DNA of 55,565 nt from Oscillospiraceae bacterium (GTDB taxonomy: Bacteria; Bacillota; Clostridia; Oscillospirales; Acutalibacteraceae), in contig WRDW01000008.1 of the NCBI GenBank assembly GCA_009779995.1, positions 1 through 55,565 of the forward strand, read 5' to 3'. Below the pieces are notes generated by a model. The model was not told where the DNA came from, made no database searches, and saw only the letters and a list, made by a program, of their open reading frames with translations. A program made the position numbers and the translations under genes. Below, piece after piece: positions 10,252 to 13,320 of this stretch. The first letter of the stretch is position 1, and every line of letters begins with the position of its first letter.

Positions 10252-11175
10252 TTATGCGCCCCCCAGCGCCCTTGCCATCTCCATCAAATCATCTTGGTTA
10301 TAAAACTCGATCACCAGCTGGCCGCCGCCGCCGGGGCCGGGGACGATCCTCACCTTGCGGCCCAGGGCCTCGCATAGGCAGAGGCGCACCTCCTCGAAGG
10401 GCTGGGCGCGGCGGGCCTCCGGCAGGGGAATCTGCGCAATGATCTCCCCGCGCTGCGTGCCGCTCACGGGCAATTTCCCTGCGGCGGCATTCGCGTTGGC
10501 CGCGAGGCTCACGGCCTCGTTGCGGCGCCTGACGAGCCTCTCGCTCTCGCGCACGTTGAGGCCCTTCTCGGCCACTTCAAGAGCAAGGGGGGCGATGGCG
10601 GCGCTCTCGTCCAAGCCCATGAGCGCCCGCGCGTGGCCCTCGGTGAGCTTTTTGTCCCGCACGAGCTCCTGCACAGTACCCGGCAAATTCAACAGCCGCA
10701 GGGCGTTTGCGACAGCGGAGCGCGATTTCCCCACGCGCCTTGCCGTCTCCTCCTGCGTGAGGCTGAACTCCTCCATCAAACTGCGGTAGCCGCGCGCCTC
10801 CTCCATGGGGTTGAGGTCTTCGCGCTGCAAATTCTCGATCAGCGCGGCGGCCATGCTCTCCGCGTCGGAGAGCTCTTTTATCACAACCGGGATTTCCGTC
10901 AGCCCCGCCGCCCGCGCCGCGCGCCACCTTCTCTCCCCCGCGATGATCCGATACGCCCCGCCGGGCACGGGCCGCACGAGGATGGGCTGCAGCACGCCGT
11001 GCTCGGCCACGCTGCGGCTGAGCTCCGCCATGGCCCCCTCGTCGAAGTCCTGCCGGGGCTGCTCGCGGTTGGGCTCCACCTCCAAAATGGGCAGCGTCAC
11101 GGCGCTCTCCGCCATGCCGTTGTCATCAAAGAGGCTGTCCAGCCCGCGCCCGAGGTTGAATTTTTTGGTTGGCAT
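10252..11175 (-). CDS. parB: Chromosome-partitioning protein ParB (Spo0J)
   Basis: 307 residues. ParB nuclease-like N domain with the CTP-binding GERRWRAARAAGL motif, then the HTH segment (TQEETARRVGKSRSAVANALRLL) that reads parS. The C terminus would dimerise. Loads on parS sites near the origin as a CTP-switched clamp, working with ParA. No parS consensus was found by eye in this window. AAGGAG lies upstream of the start. The gene is separated from parA by two zinc-ribbon reading frames, which is unusual. Confidence 0.95.
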   Translation of the reverse strand: MPTKKFNLGRGLDSLFDDNGMAESAVTLPILEVEPNREQPRQDFDEGAMAELSRSVAEHGVLQPILVRPVPGGAYRIIAGERRWRAARAAGLTEIPVVIKELSDAESMAAALIENLQREDLNPMEEARGYRSLMEEFSLTQEETARRVGKSRSAVANALRLLNLPGTVQELVRDKKLTEGHARALMGLDESAAIAPLALEVAEKGLNVRESERLVRRRNEAVSLAANANAAAGKLPVSGTQRGEIIAQIPLPEARRAQPFEEVRLCLCEALGRKVRIVPGPGGGGQLVIEFYNQDDLMEMARALGGA

Positions 11176-11204
11176 CGGGTGCTGCTCCTTATGCTTTTTT
11201 CAGA

Positions 11205-11231
11205 GCGGGCGGCAAATTGCCGCACCTACAT
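11205..11231. repeat. Family A repeat, degenerate half element
   Basis: GCGGGCGGCAAATTGCCGCA followed by CCTACAT: the family A palindrome with a shortened centre, just upstream of parB. Confidence 0.7.
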
Positions 11232-11243
11232 GAGGTTTATTCA

Positions 11244-11750
11244 TCAGTTTATAAAAGCTCTCCAACTCTCCACCAAAGCTATCACGGATACAAGAAAGCC
11301 AATCAAGGAGATTACTAGCCCAGGGATCGATTTCTTACTGCTTGCTTTGACAGCAAATACGAGGCCGATGACCGCCAGTATCGCAGGAATGATGCCAATA
11401 ACGCCTGGGGCTCCACTGTTATAAAAAGCGGCGGCGATAATAATGGAACATATGCCAAAAGCGACTGAAGCTATGGCGCGGCCAGTTTTGGATGAAGGTT
11501 TACTCGGTGCAACTGGAGGCGGCTGTGTTCCCATGGGTTGCAGCGCCTGTGGAGGTTGCACCAACACGGATGCCCCAGCCTGCGGCGGTTGCATAAAGAC
11601 GTTCTGTGCCTGAATGCTTACCTGGTAATTCTGCACGGCCTTCTCCACGATGAACGCCGCGCCGCAGAACTCGCAGTTGGCGGCATCCAGCGCGCCGTTG
11701 ACCTTCAGCGCCGCGCCGCAGCTTGTGCAGCGGGCATCGAGCAGTGCCAT
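11244..11750 (-). CDS. Zinc-ribbon membrane protein
   Basis: 168 residues. An N-terminal zinc ribbon (CTSC at residues 8-11, CEFC at 26-29) is followed by a Gln/Pro-rich linker (MQPPQAGASVLVQPPQALQP) and two or three hydrophobic segments in the C-terminal half (AIASVAFGICSIIIAAAF, IIPAILAVIGLVFAV, GLVISLIGFLVSVIAL). This is a common clostridial 'zinc-ribbon plus TM' layout of unknown function. Start at 11750 is set by GGAGGACAACCC; a longer ATG exists upstream but lacks support. Lower GC than its neighbours. It lies between parB and parA on the same strand. Confidence 0.8.
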   Translation of the reverse strand: MALLDARCTSCGAALKVNGALDAANCEFCGAAFIVEKAVQNYQVSIQAQNVFMQPPQAGASVLVQPPQALQPMGTQPPPVAPSKPSSKTGRAIASVAFGICSIIIAAAFYNSGAPGVIGIIPAILAVIGLVFAVKASSKKSIPGLVISLIGFLVSVIALVESWRAFIN

Positions 11751-11831
11751 GGGTTGTCCTCCATATTTCAAATTTTCTCTGAACGCACGAGGGAGTATCG
11801 CGCAGCGACGTTCCTTTTCGCGGAGCGACCC

Positions 11832-12068
11832 CTACCCCGCCCAAGTAAAACACCTATCATTCCCGCAGGTCTCGCAGCGCGGCGCATCGGCGGGCACCTT
11901 CTTGCCGCAATAGTAGCAGGTTTTCAGCGCATCCTTCCCCAGGCTCCCCCTTGGGGGAGCTGTCGCCTCGGGCGACTGAGGGGGTGTCGTGGGGGAGCTG
12001 CCGCCTCGGGCGGCTGAGGGGGTGTCTGCCGCGCCCCCAACTGTCAACTGTCCACTGTCAATTGTCAC
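11832..12068 (-). CDS. Short zinc-ribbon ORF built partly from repeats
   Basis: 78 codons. Only the C-terminal 30 residues look like a domain: CYYCGKKVPADAPRCETCGN, a rubredoxin-like CxxC-x9-CxxC ribbon. The N-terminal two-thirds is translated from a short tandem repeat (12039-12078) and two tandem family C units (11939-12036), so the gene's original 5' end may have been replaced. It overlaps the end of parA by 11 bp. Could be a real fused product or the remnant of a larger zinc-ribbon gene. Confidence 0.45.
   Translation of the reverse strand: MTIDSGQLTVGGAADTPSAARGGSSPTTPPQSPEATAPPRGSLGKDALKTCYYCGKKVPADAPRCETCGNDRCFTWAG
11939..12036. repeat. Two tandem family C repeats
   Basis: Two direct copies of a unit reading GGGGGAGCTGYCGCCTCGGG ... 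CTGAGGGGGTGTC, 48 bp apart; each contains the small palindrome GCCTCGGGCGGC or its variant. They lie inside the reading frame at 11832-12068. Confidence 0.85.
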
Positions 12069-12078
12069 TTGTCAATTC
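12039..12078. repeat. Short tandem repeat (CAACTGTC/CACTGTC/CAATTGTC) at the parA 3' end
   Basis: Degenerate 7-8-bp tandem units. The complement encodes the last residues of ParA (ELTSDN), its stop codon, and the first residues of the next ORF. Confidence 0.75.
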
Positions 12079-12852
12079 CCCCGCCCCCGCGCTGTTGTTG
12101 CTCAAAAACTCCTCCGCAAGCGCGTTGTACGCCACGCTGCCCTTGGAGTAATTGTCGTAGTACATCACCGGCTGGCCGAAGCTGGGGGCCTCGGAGAGGC
12201 GCACGTTGCGGGGGACGACCGTGGAGTACACCCGGCGCGGGAAGAAGCGCTTCACTTCGTCCACGACAGCCTGGGTGAGGTTCAGCCGGCCGTCGTACAT
12301 GGTGAGCACCACGCCCTCGATGTCGATGAGGGGGTTCCACAGGCGCTTGACCTGCCGCACGGTCTGCATCAGCTGCGAGAGGCCCTCCAGGGCGAAGTAC
12401 TCGCACTGGATGGGCACCATCACGGTGTCGGCGGCGCACAGGGCGTTGATGGTGATGAGCCCCAGGGCGGGCGGGCAGTCCATGAAGATGAAATCGAAGT
12501 CGTCGCGCACCATGGCCAGGGCGGTTTTCAGCTTGCTCTCGCGCTGGGGCAGCTCCACGAGCTCCAGCTCGGCCCCGGCGAGGTTCATGCTGCTGGGCAG
12601 CACCCACACGTTTTTGAACTGCGTGGCCGCCACGGCCTCGCTTGCCTTTTTGCCGCCGATGAGCACCTCGTAGCTGGAACAGGCGAGCTTCTTCTTGTTG
12701 ATGCCGAGGCCCGTGGTGGCGTTCCCCTGGGGGTCCACGTCCGCCAACAGAACTTTGTATCCCTGCGAGCCTATGGCGGCCGCCAAATTCACGGCGGTGG
12801 TGGTTTTGCCCACCCCGCCCTTCTGGTTTACGATAGCGATGACCTTCCCCAT
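12058..12852 (-). CDS. parA: Chromosome-partitioning ATPase ParA (Soj)
   Basis: 264-residue deviant Walker ATPase: KGGVGKTTTAVN at residues 11-22 with the signature lysine, switch I/II region DVDPQGNATTGLG and the DCPPALG motif. It forms nucleotide-dependent dimers on DNA and moves ParB-parS complexes or modulates DnaA. Start at 12852 (GGAGG about 10 nt upstream) matches the family N terminus MGKVIAIVNQKGG. Its last six residues come from a repeat. A near-consensus promoter lies at 12904-12932. High confidence. Confidence 0.96.
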   Translation of the reverse strand: MGKVIAIVNQKGGVGKTTTAVNLAAAIGSQGYKVLLADVDPQGNATTGLGINKKKLACSSYEVLIGGKKASEAVAATQFKNVWVLPSSMNLAGAELELVELPQRESKLKTALAMVRDDFDFIFMDCPPALGLITINALCAADTVMVPIQCEYFALEGLSQLMQTVRQVKRLWNPLIDIEGVVLTMYDGRLNLTQAVVDEVKRFFPRRVYSTVVPRNVRLSEAPSFGQPVMYYDNYSKGSVAYNALAEEFLSNNSAGAGELTSDN

Positions 12853-12903
12853 TGATCCCCATCCTCCGCGCAAAAAATACTTGTCCACAATATCCTATAT
12901 TCT

Positions 12904-13007: not shown

Positions 13008-13036
13008 TTGACAGCCCATTTATTCCCTGCTACAAT
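13008..13036 (+). promoter_or_regulatory. Promoter of the small hydrophobic peptide (TTGACA-17-TACAAT)
   Basis: -35 TTGACA at 13008-13013, -10 TACAAT at 13031-13036, 17-bp spacer; predicted start near 13043. The leader begins with a small hairpin (GCCTA/TAGGC around 13052-13066). Confidence 0.85.
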
Positions 13037-13113
13037 GGTCGTGGTAGCGTTGCCTATGCGGTAGGCGGTTAAATCCTGCCCCAACCCCGGCCAGGGGGAA
13101 GGGAGGTGTGTGG

Positions 13114-13185
13114 ATGGAATTTTTAGTGCTTTTGGTAGTAATGCTGATTGTTGCGACAGGTTACATTAACGCATCAAAGAAATAG
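13114..13185 (+). CDS. 23-residue hydrophobic peptide, candidate type I toxin
   Basis: Begins MEFLVLLVVMLIVATGY and ends with a short polar tail and KK: one membrane-spanning helix with a charged end, the pattern of Fst/TxpA/holin-like type I toxins. GGGAGG lies 7 nt before the ATG. The stop codon is inside the stem of a hairpin (13183-13190 with 13206-13213). A strong promoter precedes it, and a second strong promoter faces it from downstream, making an antisense RNA. The coding region was too short for routine gene finding. Toxicity is inferred from layout and composition only. Confidence 0.75.
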   Translation: MEFLVLLVVMLIVATGYINASKK

Positions 13186-13270
13186 CCGCCCCAGCGTCCA
13201 ACAGTGGCGGCTAATCCTATTAGCTAATACTCCAGGGGGCTAACCGTCTATACGGCAACGCTATCCCTGT
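13176..13270 (-). ncRNA. Candidate antitoxin antisense RNA
   Basis: Predicted transcript of about 95 nt from the promoter at 13277-13305, ending at the hairpin 13183-13213 followed by TTTCTTT on this strand. It overlaps the 3' end of the peptide mRNA. It also carries sequences complementary to the mRNA leader: the complement of GGCGGCTAATCCT (13206-13218) can pair with GGCGGTTAAATCCT (13064-13077), and the complement of CCAGGGGG (13232-13239) with the identical CCAGGGGG at 13091-13098 next to the Shine-Dalgarno. That is the par/Fst-type arrangement. Ends are predicted, not measured. Confidence 0.7.
13183..13213. terminator. Shared hairpin at the convergence of peptide mRNA and antisense RNA
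   Basis: Perfect 8-bp stem TAGCCGCC/GGCGGCTA with a 15-nt loop. On the minus strand it is followed by TTTCTTT, a reasonable intrinsic terminator; on the plus strand the T-run is weak. Confidence 0.7.
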
Positions 13271-13276
13271 ATCTGT

Positions 13277-13305
13277 ATTATATTTCATAATGCTCGCTTT
13301 GTCAA
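13277..13305 (-). promoter_or_regulatory. Antisense RNA promoter (TTGACA-17-TATAAT)
   Basis: Exact consensus on the minus strand: -35 TTGACA (13300-13305), -10 TATAAT (13277-13282), 17-bp spacer. No coding sequence follows it before the convergent hairpin, which argues for a small RNA. Confidence 0.88.
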
Positions 13306-13320
13306 GCGTTTTTTGCGCGC

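Follow-up and report, generated by a model that had tools for sequence, protein, structure and literature searches.

A putative chromosomal type I toxin-antitoxin module whose two predicted RNAs share their 5' arm in an Oscillospiraceae bacterium and its relatives

Organisation of the locus

The stretch of DNA considered here (the window) comprises positions 1 to 55,565 of contig WRDW01000008.1, from the assembly GCA_009779995.1 of an Oscillospiraceae bacterium. At 13008-13305 it contains about 300 bases which were overlooked by gene finders and which are described here as a putative type I toxin-antitoxin module, with a small membrane peptide as the presumed toxin and an antisense RNA as its presumed antitoxin. 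Such a locus had been proposed in a sequence-only reading of the window, and all of the elements named there beforehand were found where it had placed them. Two predicted promoters converge on the locus. That of the toxin messenger RNA (mRNA; 13008..13036, forward strand) reads TTGACA-17-TACAAT with a TG before the -10 box, matching 11 of 12 consensus bases in a promoter scan, and similar sites occur in the copies elsewhere in the genome. That of the antisense RNA (13277..13305, reverse strand) reads TTGACA-17-TATAAT and matches 12 of 12. The scan found four promoter-like sites in 2.5 kb, with 0.6 expected.

Between the promoters lies a toxin-like open reading frame (ORF) of 23 codons, MEFLVLLVVMLIVATGYINASKK (13114..13185, forward strand; ATG at 13114, TAG at 13183-13185), which encodes one hydrophobic stretch with a KK end, as had been proposed. 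The Shine-Dalgarno sequence AAGGGAGGTG (13099..13108, forward strand) places its GGAGG core 7 nucleotides (nt) 5' of the ATG. A bidirectional terminator hairpin at 13178..13218, acting on both strands by prediction, has arms at 13178-13190 and 13206-13218, and its stem encloses the stop codon of the ORF, as the earlier reading had it. A short toxin mRNA of about 181 nt (13043..13223, forward strand) would end at this shared terminator, its extent following from the promoter and the hairpin, and the predicted antisense RNA of about 95 nt covers 13176..13270 on the reverse strand. A long, read-through toxin mRNA of about 228 nt (13043..13270, forward strand), whose 5' end would fold onto its 3' end, is also predicted (fold z -2.76; -0.56 for a form 13043-13230). 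The antisense size of about 95 nt foreseen earlier was retained, and the 150 nt foreseen for the toxin mRNA was replaced by about 180 or about 228 nt. The antisense RNA is matched at 13170-13287 by R1, a covariance model of the antisense RNA built from 28 loci (four from the window's own genome) with 115 positions and 12 pairs; its score of 94.2 bits is to be read with the window copy being part of that alignment. The antisense strand from 13270 to 13170 has a fold z of -3.08 compared with its own shuffles.

Repeats link the two RNAs. An arm here called X, TAGCGTTGCC, lies at the 5' end of the toxin mRNA (13045..13054, forward strand) and again, inverted, at the 5' end of the antisense RNA (13254..13263, reverse strand), where it is 100% complementary to 13045-13054; the same relation is seen in other loci. 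The leader repeat GGCGGTTAAATCCT (13064..13077, forward strand) is the complement of the antisense terminator arm, and its GGCGG is nearly invariant in 29 leaders. A second leader repeat, CCAGGGGG (13091..13098, forward strand), recurs at 13232, so that the direct repeats noted earlier were found at both positions; it is the complement of the antisense block CCCCCTGG (13232..13239, reverse strand), referred to below as the anti-Shine-Dalgarno block. Short direct repeats alone could be due to chance, and the locus stands above chance because it recurs in the genome.

Minor features complete the locus: a leader hairpin GCCTA-TGCGG-TAGGC (13052..13066, forward strand) read off the sequence, an in-frame GTG at 13108 ahead of the ATG of the ORF, and a weak terminator-like site (13295-13308) after the predicted long mRNA, three such sites being found and 3.2 expected. 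Genes resembling parA and parB, named from their ORF translations, adjoin at 10252-12888, and the window copy of the unit lies just upstream.

Recurrence within the genome and among relatives

The assembly from which the window derives is 66% complete, and blastn identified four further copies in it (74-84% identity) plus a leader remnant. Aligned in one orientation, these copies are similar from approximately one -35 box to the other. The genome was found to hold at least 14 units: 12 R1 matches of 45 bits or more and the weaker L007 and L008, which were counted with their ORF, Shine-Dalgarno sequence and stop codon in register. An intact peptide frame passing the criteria was present in 12 of the 14; one of the others fails the Shine-Dalgarno criterion and in L003 the frame is ended early. 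The latter (G000:C27:25805-26054) contains, near the end of the peptide frame, a palindromic insertion of about 32 base pairs (bp) which cuts the frame short, both promoters and the antisense region being kept. The remnant L006 (G000:C21, 1490-1550) consists of the leader only, without ORF or antisense part. With the exception of this remnant, none of the units lies within a long reading frame, and their neighbours are by eye ordinary chromosomal genes.

A typed composite of the unit gave blastn matches in 15 of 148 genomes, the window's own genome counted. R1 matched 150 of the 394 order genomes sampled (from 76 of 169 genera), 107 of the 341 from the class, about a third, and 39 of the 348 from the phylum; these samples overlap, and the phylum genomes that gave no match, 309 in number, form the only negative set. 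Since scoring was confined to 9 to 11 candidates in each genome, copy numbers per genome are lower bounds. A covariance search had been suggested in the sequence-only reading, and the Rfam search suggested with it gave no family matching the locus, also at E up to 5. A unit is also present on contig WQTL01000106.1 of G010, a genome of the window's genus. When named genomes were scanned with a DNA pattern, at least 116 stretches were found, of which the 80 listed loci were used; among these are loci in Roseburia inulinivorans, Butyrivibrio hungatei, Coprococcus comes, Anaerovibrio lipolyticus, Selenomonas and Phascolarctobacterium.

Seven viral contigs (IMG/VR, L069-L075) carry a related pattern, with R1 matches in all seven, and phages may carry or move units, given these copies. 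The peptides of three of them (L072, L074 and L075) are Hol_Tox-like by eye. Among plasmid records, blastn gave two short Proteus matches at E 1, among phage records it gave no match, and a tblastn search of both with one peptide from the window's genome gave none. Two, three and five units were also observed standing in tandem in the same orientation (L065, 820-2276 of G195:C1; L033, 1555-2390 of G001:C23; L196, 555-1023), with a sixth, weak match lacking an ORF at L065. Single matches occur in metagenome-assembled genomes labelled Bacteroides (L081) and Phoenicibacter (L152); contamination may account for these, or transfer.

The encoded peptides

The peptide opposite an R1 match usually has 19-37 codons, one helix and a basic tail, at least two of the last four residues being basic in 116 of 122 distinct peptides. 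Two sets of R1 matches were used for such counts: 80 examined from 118, from which reverse-strand shadows and further weak matches had been removed together with L026, a duplicate locus, and 85 from the pattern scan. A hydrophobic ORF with a Shine-Dalgarno sequence was present opposite R1 in 59 of the 85, compared with 37 of 4000 random positions, and its stop codon lies 13 nt from the end of the model in all but one of them (58 of 59). In the 80-match set the same distance was seen for 61 of the 68 that pass. Promoter scores of at least 9/12 were seen at the 85 matches for 71 antisense promoters, 59 mRNA promoters and 52 of both together; this count is without a control and is not taken as evidence.

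Across four copies from the window's genome and the G010 copy, the ratio of nonsynonymous to synonymous change (pN/pS) was 0.15, rising to 0.33 across ten wider kin. By this codon comparison the window peptide is under purifying selection, and the conservation of the 23-codon ORF in relatives, which the earlier reading had named as a check, was found. Other peptides carried in the same scaffold match recognised families. With E no greater than 0.01, the Pfam family Hol_Tox (PF16935) is matched by 15 of the 80 scaffold peptides (5.3e-10 at best), one of them above the Pfam cut-off, and at the same threshold six match the ComI model and three the PepG1 model; three match a PHROG named holin. These matches tie the scaffold to known type I toxins. 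Hol_Tox matches neither the window peptide nor anything in the window's genome. A third class of peptide, MLTI..LIAVL..LGY..KTQK or similar, was noticed in L078, L095, L102, L103 and others mostly labelled Lachnospiraceae.

Terminator stem and antisense pairing

Across 28 loci the terminator stem pairs in 94.6% of cells, a value to be read with the stem having been derived from the same alignment. Changes on both sides were present in 7 of the 12 pairs, a number reached by 10 of 500 shuffles, and the covariation score lies above all 500. On these comparisons the stem of the predicted bidirectional terminator covaries.

Pairing between the toxin Shine-Dalgarno region and the 16 nt which follow the conserved CGG of the antisense RNA averages -11.3 kcal/mol. 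Compared with single-base shuffles the mean z is -1.53, with 26 of 64 loci below -1.64, and the total for pairings of Shine-Dalgarno and anti-Shine-Dalgarno within their own loci was reached by 57 of 5000 permutations (78 of 5000 after collapsing near-duplicates). By these tests the antisense block is complementary to the Shine-Dalgarno sequence. Of the 80 examined matches, 66 entered a duplex test of the whole leader (see below) and 64 of these the Shine-Dalgarno test. RNAalifold on the leader alignment gave no consensus structure. The GCGGTTA repeat found in both leader and terminator is widespread; inspection by eye showed no joint change of its variants, and coevolution was therefore not counted.

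A shared arm at the start of both RNAs

Arm X is the common start of the predicted toxin mRNA and antisense RNA as a tendency across 97 loci, and its sequence varies, for example GGAGTTATCC in L023, AAGGGTACTG in L031 and AAGAGGTTACC in L028. Similarity of the two arms within a locus averaged 9.16, compared with 5.17 when permuted, and none of 5000 permutations reached it. The identical predicted RNA 5' ends pointed out for the window were thereby borne out, and nothing else in the family is as unusual. The agreement is confined to the transcribed ends (z 23.4); promoter spacers gave a z of 0.4 (1742/5000) and sequence upstream of -35 one of 1.7 (255/5000, at most weak). It survives trimming of up to 10 nt beside the local hairpin (0/3000). 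These permutation figures are inflated by related loci, and the effect shrinks when genomes are taken singly (8.90 vs 8.33, 2/5000), with own arms no better than paralog arms in three of nine genomes; X is for these reasons mostly a lineage feature. The within-genome set consisted of 48 of 49 matches (one partial match out) and 13 units of the window's genome (the broken-frame unit out), 11 of the 61 being without an ORF by the criteria. The remaining sets for X and for folding (97, 89 and 96 loci) were drawn from the 165 matches (80 + 85), 127 of which passed the ORF filter, once filters for ORF and motif had been applied and duplicates taken out.

Because X is inverted, an mRNA extending as far as the antisense start would have the complement of its own 5' end at its 3' end. 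When the long mRNAs were folded, 83 of 89 showed one or more bases of the 5' arm paired to the final 32 nt (probability >0.5). A fold z below -2 was found in 96 of 96 loci for the long form and 87 of 96 for the short, the long form being the more negative in 93; 25 shuffles were used each, and three loci were rerun with 100. The A-content just before X at the antisense start is 0.52 vs 0.33 (Wilcoxon p 1.8e-9, 84 loci), which would provide a U-run for the long mRNA, and beside the shared stem T occupies 6.4 of 12 positions on the mRNA side vs 8.7 of 12 on the antisense side. This modelled arrangement suggests a leaky first terminator plus a second terminator for the toxin mRNA.

The agreement of the arms could also have arisen from gene conversion between them, inverted repeats being able to recombine, or from sites for a DNA-binding regulator, X lying just downstream of both promoters in a possible operator position; paralogs within one genome often have the same X. 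Such an origin, in place of RNA fold-back, would be compatible with a type I module and was judged apart from the explanations of the locus as a whole. It is a serious minority possibility, against which stand the ending of the agreement at the predicted start sites, the differences in X between lineages and at times between loci of one genome, and the A-rich stretch before X that would serve the long mRNA as a U-run.

Proposed mechanism and alternative explanations

The locus is interpreted as a chromosomal type I toxin-antitoxin module, with a probability of roughly 0.8 judged from sequence comparison. The type I reading proposed for the window is supported by the recurrence of the promoters and peptide, the covarying terminator, the anti-Shine-Dalgarno block and the Hol_Tox peptides in the peptide slot. 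The 23-residue, single-helix membrane peptide would be the toxin, and the antisense RNA of about 95 nt, transcribed from the other strand, would end in the same hairpin. The mRNA would be made with its Shine-Dalgarno sequence partly paired; the antisense RNA would contact it at the shared terminator and cover the Shine-Dalgarno sequence, and translation would be blocked or the duplex exposed to RNase. A read-through mRNA would additionally be held closed by its 5' arm X, paired to the 3' arm, so that toxin would appear only upon loss of the antisense RNA or processing of the mRNA. A more specific proposal is tentative and is put at a little short of even odds: the shared, variable X would lock the read-through mRNA, the X of the antisense RNA would compete for the same arm, X would double as lock and lineage tag, and peptides of the window, Hol_Tox and KTQK types could replace one another in the slot.

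Several results weigh against these interpretations. Predicted exposure of the Shine-Dalgarno sequence is similar in the short (0.26) and long (0.30) mRNA, and fold-back alone need not block translation for that reason. Further pair types in the terminator showed no excess, 395 of 500 shuffles reaching the count. By the criteria used, no ORF was present at 26 of the 85 and 12 of the 80 R1 matches. The window peptide gave no match in Pfam, NCBIfam, PHROGs or PADLOC, in keeping with the earlier remark that it resembles no recognised member. Finally, the whole leader and the antisense 5' domain pair with no excess over dinucleotide shuffles (mean z -0.25, 4 of 66 loci below -2). The complementarity to the leader beside the ribosome binding site claimed for the window therefore stands for the Shine-Dalgarno block and not for the whole leader; extensive leader-antisense pairing, with duplex energies no better than shuffles, was dropped.

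Purifying selection on the peptide, the intact frames in 12 of 14 units and the position of the units outside long frames (bar the L006 remnant), among ordinary chromosomal genes by eye, would fit a conserved membrane microprotein that is not toxic, with a cis-antisense RNA tuning its synthesis. This explanation is unlikely, given the Hol_Tox peptides in the same scaffold in relatives and the pattern of L003, which lost its frame and kept its promoters and antisense region, and of the leader remnant L006, the kind of pattern expected when a harmful product is lost. A miniature inverted-repeat mobile element, with promoters, peptide and RNAs incidental, would fit the dispersed multiple copies with imperfect inverted ends, the tandem arrays and the copies on seven viral contigs, but is very improbable, as the agreeing ends coincide with transcribed starts and extend neither to the spacers nor upstream of -35, and codon-level selection and a fixed stop position would be unexpected.

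Few type I toxin homologs have been reported in Clostridia outside Clostridioides difficile, according to the accessible part of one review (PMC6563280); in contrast, about a third of the sampled class genomes match R1, many with several copies. Relatives of the unit, often multi-copy, are common in gut bacteria. The unit lies outside Rfam and the window peptide outside all protein libraries searched, and the exchangeable peptide slot may offer a route to unannotated membrane toxins. The shared arm X provides a testable idea for the silencing of many similar toxin genes per cell, and for cross-talk among paralogous antitoxins.

Comparison with known systems

The closest layout is that of the par loci, which are described, in the part of PMC7472228 available, as having convergent promoters, a bidirectional terminator, direct repeats, and a sequestered Shine-Dalgarno sequence and mRNA 5' end. 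Like par of pAD1 (Fst, RNA I/RNA II) and chromosomal par-like loci as described there, the window has convergent promoters and a bidirectional terminator, and by prediction it has forms of Shine-Dalgarno sequestration and, as far as the Shine-Dalgarno block goes, of the second complementary region at the translation start. The same text gives the Fst signature as P/D/S/T-XXX-G in the helix with a tryptophan before the charged tail (PMC7472228). The window peptide has no tryptophan, and with isoleucine at the first motif position it lacks a PXXXG-type motif; the window has no Rfam, NCBIfam or Pfam match. The likeness to Fst/par suggested earlier thus extends to the layout, in promoters and terminator, and not to the toxin sequence, where the signature is absent. 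The window differs from par further in the stop codon inside the terminator stem, the same arm X on both RNAs and the at least 14 units in its one genome.

TxpA and BsrG are Hol_Tox members. The likeness to TxpA/RatA and BsrG/SR4 consists in the Hol_Tox peptides of scaffold relatives; the window and its genome are without a Hol_Tox match. In the Bacillus type I systems, ribosome-binding sites are sequestered by a few GC pairs and duplexes of 100-140 bp form between antitoxins and the 3' ends of toxin mRNAs, as far as the available text of PMC6562991 describes them. Compared with that range, the overlap predicted for the window is about 48 nt (short mRNA) or 95 nt (long), and its antisense RNA differs by the anti-Shine-Dalgarno block.

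In AapA/IsoA of Helicobacter pylori, IsoA overlaps the 5' part of the AapA mRNA, whereas the window antisense RNA overlaps the mRNA 3' end. The 225-nt form of the AapA3 mRNA is inert through a 5'-3' interaction and the form lacking the last 35 nt is active, according to the portion of PMC6733600 available. As in AapA/IsoA so described, and in hok/Sok, the window has a predicted 5'-3' closed longer mRNA and a shorter form, of similar sizes. The two mRNA forms of the window would arise from two terminators and not from the trimming seen in AapA/IsoA, and, as a difference from both systems, its antisense RNA starts with the 5' arm of the mRNA as well and would be a competitor for the 3' arm.

In C. 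difficile, type I modules likewise comprise convergent toxin and antisense genes, as described in the accessible part of PMC6563280; they differ from the window in their toxins, which have 50-53 residues. Among open-literature titles and abstracts, none was found describing the family in Oscillospiraceae, Lachnospiraceae, Butyrivibrio or Roseburia, and the combination of a par-like layout and a shared arm X was not found in the open literature searched. TxpA-like or Fst-like sequences are reported in Clostridium bolteae in the same part of PMC6563280, and these could be members of the scaffold described here. If the toxin mRNA is slightly longer than its short form, the model would place a hok/AapA-like lock on a par-like frame.
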